Source: Sphaerisporangium album (GTDB taxonomy: Bacteria; Actinomycetota; Actinomycetes; Streptosporangiales; Streptosporangiaceae). Taken from it: a stretch of DNA of 64,000 nucleotides. Of the stretch, positions 32,082 through 33,158 are shown one piece after another (within the stretch, counting starts at the first letter, position 1; the number at the start of each line of letters is the position of its first letter). The position numbers and the translations under genes are program-made. The notes under the pieces were generated by a model. It had not been told where the DNA came from. It made no database searches and saw nothing but the letters and a program-made list of their open reading frames with translations. The DNA lies in the NCBI RefSeq assembly GCF_003323745.1, contig NZ_QOIL01000005.1, positions 248,001 through 312,000 of the forward strand, written 5' to 3'.

Positions 32082-32110
32082 TTACGCAAGTGTGGTCCGT
32101 TACGTATGAT
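32082..32110 (+). promoter_or_regulatory. Promoter of the UAA-anticodon tRNA
   Basis: TTACGC (32082-32087) and TATGAT (32105-32110) are spaced by 17 bp. The expected start of transcription, about 7 bases after the -10, falls at the first base of the tRNA (32118), so the transcript may have almost no 5' leader. Confidence 0.6.
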
Positions 32111-32117
32111 TTACGGC

Positions 32118-32190
32118 GCCCCCGTAGCCCAATGGCAGAGGCAAACCCCTTAAAAGGGTTCCAGTGTGGGTTCGAGTCCCACCGGGGGCA
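32118..32190 (+). tRNA. tRNA with anticodon UAA (codon UUA), class I fold
   Basis: A full 73-nt cloverleaf: acceptor GCCCCCG/CGGGGGC (7 bp), T8 A9, D-arm GCC/GGC with loop containing GG, anticodon stem AACCC/GGGTT with loop CTTAAAA (anticodon T32168-style position 34-36 = TAA at 32151-32153), variable loop CCAGT (5 nt), T-arm GTGGG-TTCGAGT-CCCAC, discriminator A. The CCA end is not encoded (CCC follows). Bacterial tRNA-Leu normally has a long variable arm (class II, about 85 nt), and so does the actinobacterial UAA tRNA known as bldA. This gene lacks it, so the amino acid it carries is uncertain. It might be a leucine tRNA of odd form, another isoacceptor with a changed anticodon, or a specialised or inactive tRNA. 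Confidence 0.85.
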
Positions 32191-32360
32191 CCCCTGCCGA
32201 CTATATGAAACACCCCTGATGGCAGTAACGCTCCCGAAGAGCTATATCCTTGACGGTTTGGCACTCGCCACGGGACATTCTGGGTAAGCCCCGAAACCCC
32301 TCAAGAGGCGGACCGCTTCCCCTCCGCCGTGAATCGTTACCATTCCGTGCCGTCGCGTCG

Positions 32361-33158
32361 TTATCGGCTCCCGGCACCCGCCGAGCCGCCCTCAGGCCCG
32401 AGGTTCCCGCTCAGGAACGCCGCCGTCCGGTCGTCCGCCGGAAGGAACGCCTCCAGCTTCAGCTCGGCCACCGTCACGTCCACGGCGGTGGCGAAGGTCG
32501 TGACGGTCGTGATCAGCCGCAGCTCGCCGCCCTCGGAGCGCAGGCGCAGCGGCACCGCGAACCCCAGGTGGCCCGCGGACGGCAGCGACCGCGGCACGTA
32601 CGACGCCAGCTCCTCGCGCAGGCCGGCCAGGCGCTCGTCAGGGTGGCGCAGCGTCTCCTGGTTCAGCCTCTCCAGGATGTGCACGGCCCACTCGGCGAAG
32701 TTGAGGATGCGCGGCGCGATGCCGCGCGGGTGCAGCGCCAGGCGGTAGACGTTCGCCGGCGGCGCGAGCAGCTCGGGGTCCACGTCCCCGAACAGCGCGG
32801 TGAAGGCCGTGTTGGAGGCCACCAGGTCGCCGTGCCGGTCCACGACCACCGCCGGGTAGGGCAGGTGGCCGGTGAGGATGTGGTCCAGCGCGGTGCGGAT
32901 CGCGGCGAGCGCGGGGTCGCCGAGGTCGGTCTCCGGGTAGACCGGGGCGTACCCCGCCGACAACAGCAGGCCGTTGCGCTCACGTAACGGCAGCTCCAGC
33001 GACTCGGCCAGCCGGACGACCATGCTCCGGCCGGGCGCCGACCGCCCGCTCTCCATGAAGCTGATGTGCCGCTGGGTCGTGCCCGCCCGGATCGCGAGGT
33101 CGAGCTGGCTGAGCCGGCTGCGCGTCCTTCGCTCACGGAGCGCCTGCGAGAACTCCAC
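32361..33158 (-). CDS. XRE-family regulator with MmyB-like ligand-binding domain
   Basis: The 265-residue protein has an N-terminal helix-turn-helix (LRERRTRSRLSQLDLAIRAG, then TTQRHISFMESGRSAP) and a C-terminal MmyB-like domain (PAVVVDRHGDLVASNTAF, LNFAEWAVHILERL, PLRLRSEGGELRLITTVTTF), a PAS-like fold reported to bind fatty-acid-type ligands in this family. It probably controls a nearby gene or itself. A 24-bp perfect palindrome lies 33 bp upstream of its GTG start. Codon 58 is TTA (32985-32987), and the gene is next to the UAA tRNA. Target genes are unknown. Confidence 0.9.
   Translation of the reverse strand: MEFSQALRERRTRSRLSQLDLAIRAGTTQRHISFMESGRSAPGRSMVVRLAESLELPLRERNGLLLSAGYAPVYPETDLGDPALAAIRTALDHILTGHLPYPAVVVDRHGDLVASNTAFTALFGDVDPELLAPPANVYRLALHPRGIAPRILNFAEWAVHILERLNQETLRHPDERLAGLREELASYVPRSLPSAGHLGFAVPLRLRSEGGELRLITTVTTFATAVDVTVAELKLEAFLPADDRTAAFLSGNLGPEGGSAGAGSR

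Follow-up and report, generated by a model that had tools for sequence, protein, structure and literature searches.

A tRNA Gene with a UAA Anticodon and a Five-Nucleotide Variable Loop

The window, i.e., the whole stretch of 64,000 nucleotides of Sphaerisporangium album DNA that was analysed, contains a single tRNA gene according to ARAGORN (32118–32192, forward strand, anticodon UAA at position 34), flanked by genes for an NDH2-like oxidoreductase and an MmyB-like regulator (Table 1). The Rfam model RF00005 matches the segment 32118–32190 over its full length with 59.7 bits (E-value 2.1e-10) against a gathering score of 29, which places it among the tRNAs. The anticodon loop CTTAAAA (32149–32155) gives the anticodon UAA, accompanied by U33 and a purine at position 37, the T loop reads TTCGAGT, and the terminal CCA is not encoded, CCC coming after A73. 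A thermodynamic fold recovers the acceptor, anticodon and T helices (−32.9 kcal/mol, z −2.5). With a variable loop of five bases, this is a class I tRNA: the long variable arm of at least 10 nt that defines class II tRNAs of the bldA type is absent. The D-loop pattern is that of the class II tRNA-Leu of the same genome. The complete cloverleaf, UAA anticodon and short loop of the original prediction, made from the sequence alone, are thus borne out by ARAGORN, RF00005 and the sequence itself, both programs placing the anticodon as claimed.

Table 1. Features of the tRNA-Leu(UAA) locus (positions in the window).
Feature	Position	Strand	Basis
Weak candidate −35 element TTACGC, 17-bp spacer	32082..32087	+	conserved in the genus only
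−10 box TATGAT, ending 7 nt upstream of G1	32105..32110	+	conserved in the family
Class I tRNA-Leu(UAA)	32118..32190	+	ARAGORN, Rfam RF00005, sequence
D loop AATGGCAGA: A14, A15, G18, G19, C20, A20a	32131..32139	+	sequence, determinant table
Anticodon TAA (UAA), flanked by U33 and A37	32151..32153	+	sequence, Rfam alignment
Variable loop CCAGT, 5 nt; U48 pairs with A15	32161..32165	+	sequence, determinant table
Discriminator base A73	32190..32190	+	sequence, determinant table
In-frame UUA codon in the MmyB-like regulator gene (32361–33158, −)	32985..32987	−	codon comparison

Promoter and Predicted Start of Transcription

The ten congeneric genomes all have the −10 box 6–7 nt upstream of the tRNA, as do additional genera of the family; its flanks differ between genera while the box itself is kept. 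Such a box (TAnnnT, 4–9 nt before the mature 5′ end) precedes 3 of the 58 tRNA genes of the genome, namely tRNA-Leu(UAA) and two serine tRNAs. The arrangement is that of a leaderless tRNA promoter, in which the −10 element lies about 6–7 nt before the mature 5′ end, and, because the box is conserved at this distance and rare among the tRNA genes of the genome, transcription likely starts at or adjoining G1 of tRNA-Leu(UAA). The candidate −35 element agrees with TTGACA at two of six positions, and a consensus promoter scan returned no sigma-70 site upstream of the tRNA. Of the promoter originally proposed, with −35 and −10 boxes and a start at the mature 5′ end, the −10 box and the probable start therefore hold, but the −35 element is poor, confined to the genus and without a match in the consensus scan.

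Leucine tRNAs and LeuRS of the Genome

In the S. album genome, 58 tRNA genes score above the Rfam cut-off, after which the score of the next candidate falls from 51 to 24 bits. Five of them are tRNA-Leu. Three (UAA, CAA and UAG) belong to class I, have variable loops of 5 nt and are the sole copies in the genome; the other two (CAG and GAG) belong to class II and have the long arm. The original prediction had suggested looking for an ordinary bldA elsewhere in the genome; no second UAA tRNA of class II (bldA type) exists among the 58 tRNA genes, so that the gene at 32118–32190 is the only UAA tRNA. The possibility that a class II UAA gene had escaped detection was rejected in view of the score gap below the last true tRNA. 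Regarding the synthetase, one bacterial-type LeuRS exceeds the family cut-off in this genome, as in each of five relatives; the other matches, examined as candidates for a second LeuRS, are weak and correspond by inspection to related class I synthetases (e.g., ValRS-like).

Two further observations were made in this genome. A predicted tRNA-Asn (GUU) with A33 (G000:C23:78167-78240; L081:101-175) has a D arm, an anticodon stem and a T arm that resemble those of tRNA-Glu, and could be either a tRNA-Glu in decay or, like tRNA-ProX, a tRNA of dual identity. Moreover, there are two rpoB genes (G000:C34:516665-518782 and G000:C5:284865-286967), each cut by a contig end.

Distribution of Class I tRNA-Leu(UAA)

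The same tRNA occurs in 11/11 genomes of the genus at 99–100% identity (identical in nine, one base off in two). At the family level, a relaxed pattern matched 87 genomes, one of them spurious by inspection, which leaves a class I UAA tRNA in 86/91 genomes and a class II UAA tRNA in none. Across the class, a strict pattern, a few matches of which are due to chance, found it in 163/297 genomes, and it is present in most families; class II UAA genes occur in a minority of the other families, being retained by Streptomyces-like genomes (the Streptomyces-like genus in our genome set has a class II, bldA-type UAA gene) and by several other lineages. In addition, a scan of named genomes, which is a sample and whose tRNAs were confirmed by ARAGORN, includes among the matches listed Mycobacterium, Corynebacterium, Bifidobacterium, Gordonia, Nocardia, Rhodococcus, Nocardioides, Arthrobacter, Microbacterium, Amycolatopsis, Blastococcus, Streptosporangium and Actinomadura, as well as two Acidimicrobiia genomes and, further afield, one genome each of Rokubacteria, Planctomycetota, Chloroflexi, Deltaproteobacteria, Christensenellaceae and Cylindrospermum.

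Near-identity across the genus together with presence across families excludes a normal isoacceptor with a recently mutated anticodon. The premise from which the original prediction had started, that bacteria read UUA with class II tRNAs, fails for most actinobacteria.

Two variants deserve mention. Elongator tRNAs have a nearly universal U33, but one branch of the family has C33 in its class I UAA tRNA (loop CCTAAAA; L024–L030, many genomes), and one such tRNA is labelled Phe(AAA) by ARAGORN. Two genomes, both from one genus of the family, have a second, divergent class I UAA-like tRNA (G034:C87:4497-4537 and G502:C233:31490-31530).

Isoacceptors and Origin of the Short-Armed tRNAs

When 16 genomes were compared, UAA proved to be class I wherever any tRNA-Leu is class I, while CAA is class I in some of them (e.g., Corynebacterium and a Mycobacterium-like genome) and UAG only in the Sphaerisporangium family; in genomes from outside the actinobacteria, the sole class I tRNA-Leu seen is often UAA. 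This spread of isoacceptors suggests that UAA came first and that CAA and UAG arose later by duplication and anticodon change.

A tree computed from about 70 columns groups 121/127 class I tRNA-Leu, across phyla, apart from 34/34 class II sequences, with a support of 0.79, and the D arm is nearly constant in class I (GCCC/GGC) versus GYGG/CRC in class II. From these data we infer a common ancestry of class I tRNA-Leu(UAA); yet, since the sample was drawn by D-loop and anticodon-loop pattern, which favours similar sequences, the tree favours a single origin without proving it. Hence, it is with slightly better than even confidence that we regard the short-armed tRNA-Leu(UAA) as one old family, separate from class II, core in most actinobacteria and present in several other phyla, with CAA and UAG derived in some lineages, and undescribed as a family. 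Alternatively, short-armed tRNA-Leu may have arisen repeatedly by deletion of the arm from class II genes, in which case they would be true tRNA-Leu but would not form a family. Their scattered distribution fits such a scenario, as do the short-armed CAG and GAG tRNAs of Cylindrospermum, in which the D arm is still class II-like and the variable arm seems to have been deleted in separate events; with the class I sequences grouped apart in the tree and their D arm nearly constant, we nevertheless consider repeated deletion a doubtful, if possible, explanation.

Three further observations concern individual genomes. In Cylindrospermum sp. NIES-4074 (L207, 2790–3266), a cluster contains five tRNA-Leu, all with short variable loops. 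In a Rokubacteria genome (G455), UAA tRNAs of class II and class I coexist (G455:C245:29093-29146 and G455:C123:612-655). Finally, one genome of the Sphaerisporangium family has a class I-sized CAG tRNA-like match (G025:C7:1998591-1998634) beside a normal class II CAG gene.

Decoding of UUA Codons

UUA is rare in S. album and its genus, amounting to 56 in 116,311 codons in the genus sample, and the ribosomal-protein region of the S. album genome contains none. Together with the anticodon and the status of sole UAA tRNA, this rarity could recall a developmental switch, i.e., a functional counterpart of bldA acting in this family through rare UUA codons, all the more as the adjacent MmyB-like regulator gene contains a UUA codon. 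That codon is not conserved, however: at its site, three relatives use other leucine codons (CTG, CTA), and we consider this role improbable.

Because of this rarity, the decisive codon test was taken from a relative, the actinobacterium IMCC26103, which has two UAA tRNAs, both class I, and whose class II tRNA genes (all fetched) are those for Ser, Tyr, Leu-GAG and Leu-UAG. UUA codons were masked before alignment in about 30 conserved proteins of this organism. Against Streptomyces-like orthologues, 22/27 masked codons face leucine, the second amino acid being 40 log units worse, and against the S. album genome 18/23 do so (second amino acid 25 log units worse). With E. coli as the sole reference, 10/24 are opposite leucine, a weak result attributable to the distance of E. 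coli and resolved by the other two references. Within the genus, UUA exchanges with other leucine codons: over 43 UUA positions, which are not mutually independent, 60/86 facing codons are CUN or UUG where the relative lacks UUA, a rough count in that some of the 26 non-leucine codons fall in stop-to-stop extensions upstream of true starts. Judging from these alignments, UUA is a leucine codon.

The original prediction had envisaged that a different amino acid is inserted at UUA. This could occur by reassignment or by deliberate mistranslation, as for tRNA-ProX of Streptomyces. The class I body of the tRNA speaks for this reading, and mistranslating tRNAs do occur in related bacteria (PMC10365949), but it is contradicted by the masked alignments and by the codon exchange within the genus, to which should be added the leucine determinants A15-U48 and A73, invariant in UAA tRNAs, and the neighbouring genes, which include no extra synthetase. 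Its probability is therefore very low.

Probable Recognition by LeuRS

According to a review (PMC9976931), the long arm is dispensable for the LeuRS of E. coli, which uses A73, A15-U48, G18G19 and A20a, and short-armed tRNA-Leu is charged by the human mitochondrial enzyme. The determinants compiled from E. coli and mitochondrial data (A73, A14, A15-U48, G18G19 and A20a; PMC9976931) are all present in the S. album tRNA, and A15-U48 and A73 are found in 114/114 class I and 28/28 class II UAA tRNAs. Within the genome, the combination of A14, A15-U48 and A73 is shared by the five tRNA-Leu and otherwise occurs only in Lys-UUU and Gln-UUG, which are distinguished by their anticodons. As every element used by the E. 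coli enzyme is there, charging of the class I tRNA-Leu(UAA) is probably ordinary. Of the third possibility originally raised, an atypical charging with leucine, the missing long arm is indeed a fact, but the elements recognized by LeuRS are complete.

Proposed Role and Significance

Overall, we propose, with a probability of about 0.93, that the gene encodes an ordinary tRNA-Leu for UUA that lacks the long arm, is charged by LeuRS, is transcribed from a start near its 5′ end and is part of a short-armed family. In this model, which builds on sequence comparisons, the tRNA would be transcribed from a promoter that starts at or next to the mature 5′ end and would receive its CCA end post-transcriptionally; the single bacterial-type LeuRS would recognize A73, A15-U48, G18-G19 and A20a rather than the arm, and leucine would be delivered at UUA and probably also, by wobble, at UUG. 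The tRNA would belong to a short-armed tRNA-Leu(UAA) family extending across actinobacteria and sporadically into other phyla, which in some lineages would include CAA and, in the Sphaerisporangium family, UAG too. A non-decoding or regulatory tRNA-like RNA, the remaining suggestion of the original prediction, has only the unusual arm in its favour and is hardly credible for a molecule with the full set of tRNA features and a conserved promoter, since the genome, whose conserved genes contain UUA codons, has no other UAA tRNA.

Such a tRNA is a form of tRNA-Leu that textbooks do not admit for bacteria, and it would represent an overlooked core tRNA of mycobacteria, corynebacteria, bifidobacteria and most other actinobacteria. 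If the one-family reading is true, one LeuRS serves two tRNA architectures within the same cell. The tRNA provides natural material for studying the real requirements of LeuRS and how tRNA-Leu stays distinct from tRNA-Ser. As mycobacterial LeuRS is a drug target, assays run on class II tRNA-Leu alone cover only part of its substrates. The tRNA is also relevant to the evolution of bldA, given that the arm has persisted in Streptomyces but not in most actinobacteria.

Comparison with Known Systems

A tRNA-sequencing study gives bacterial leucine tRNAs variable regions of 13–22 nt, and the short-armed tRNA-Leu(UUA) contradicts a 2023 review, although individual short-armed cases have already been noticed. 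A paper treating short-armed bacterial tRNA-Leu as a family was not found in open-access full texts; an earlier description elsewhere is possible, and tRNA databases presumably include such genes. Among the individual cases, a tRNA-Leu(UAG) with a short loop, noted as unlike the expected form, lies in a mycobacterial tRNA cluster (PMC6582537). Like the S. album tRNA, it is bacterial, actinobacterial and short in its variable loop, but it is an exception in an accessory cluster beside a normal copy, whereas the UAA, CAA and UAG tRNAs of S. album are the only copies. For M. tuberculosis, a toxin study assigns long loops to Leu-2, -3 and -5 and thereby implies that the other leucine tRNAs lack them, without discussing the short ones as a class (PMC11541572).

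Outside bacteria, the closest parallel is animal mitochondrial tRNA-Leu(UUR), which also lacks the long arm and is charged through A73 and A14 (PMC9976931), but which is organellar and has an anticodon branch that is partly unfolded as a bare transcript, while the S. album tRNA is a regular cloverleaf. The tRNA-ProX of Streptomyces (PMC10365949) resembles it in being actinobacterial and in its unexpected combination of body and anticodon; in the S. album tRNA, however, body determinants and anticodon both point to leucine, and UUA is read as leucine. Finally, bldA of Streptomyces has in common with it the anticodon UAA, A73, A15-U48, the position of sole UAA tRNA in the genome and the rare codon. 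The two differ in architecture: bldA-type genes (L292–L294, 85–86 nt) have a long arm and a GYGG/CRC D stem, whereas the S. album tRNA has a 5-nt loop and a GCCC/GGC D stem.
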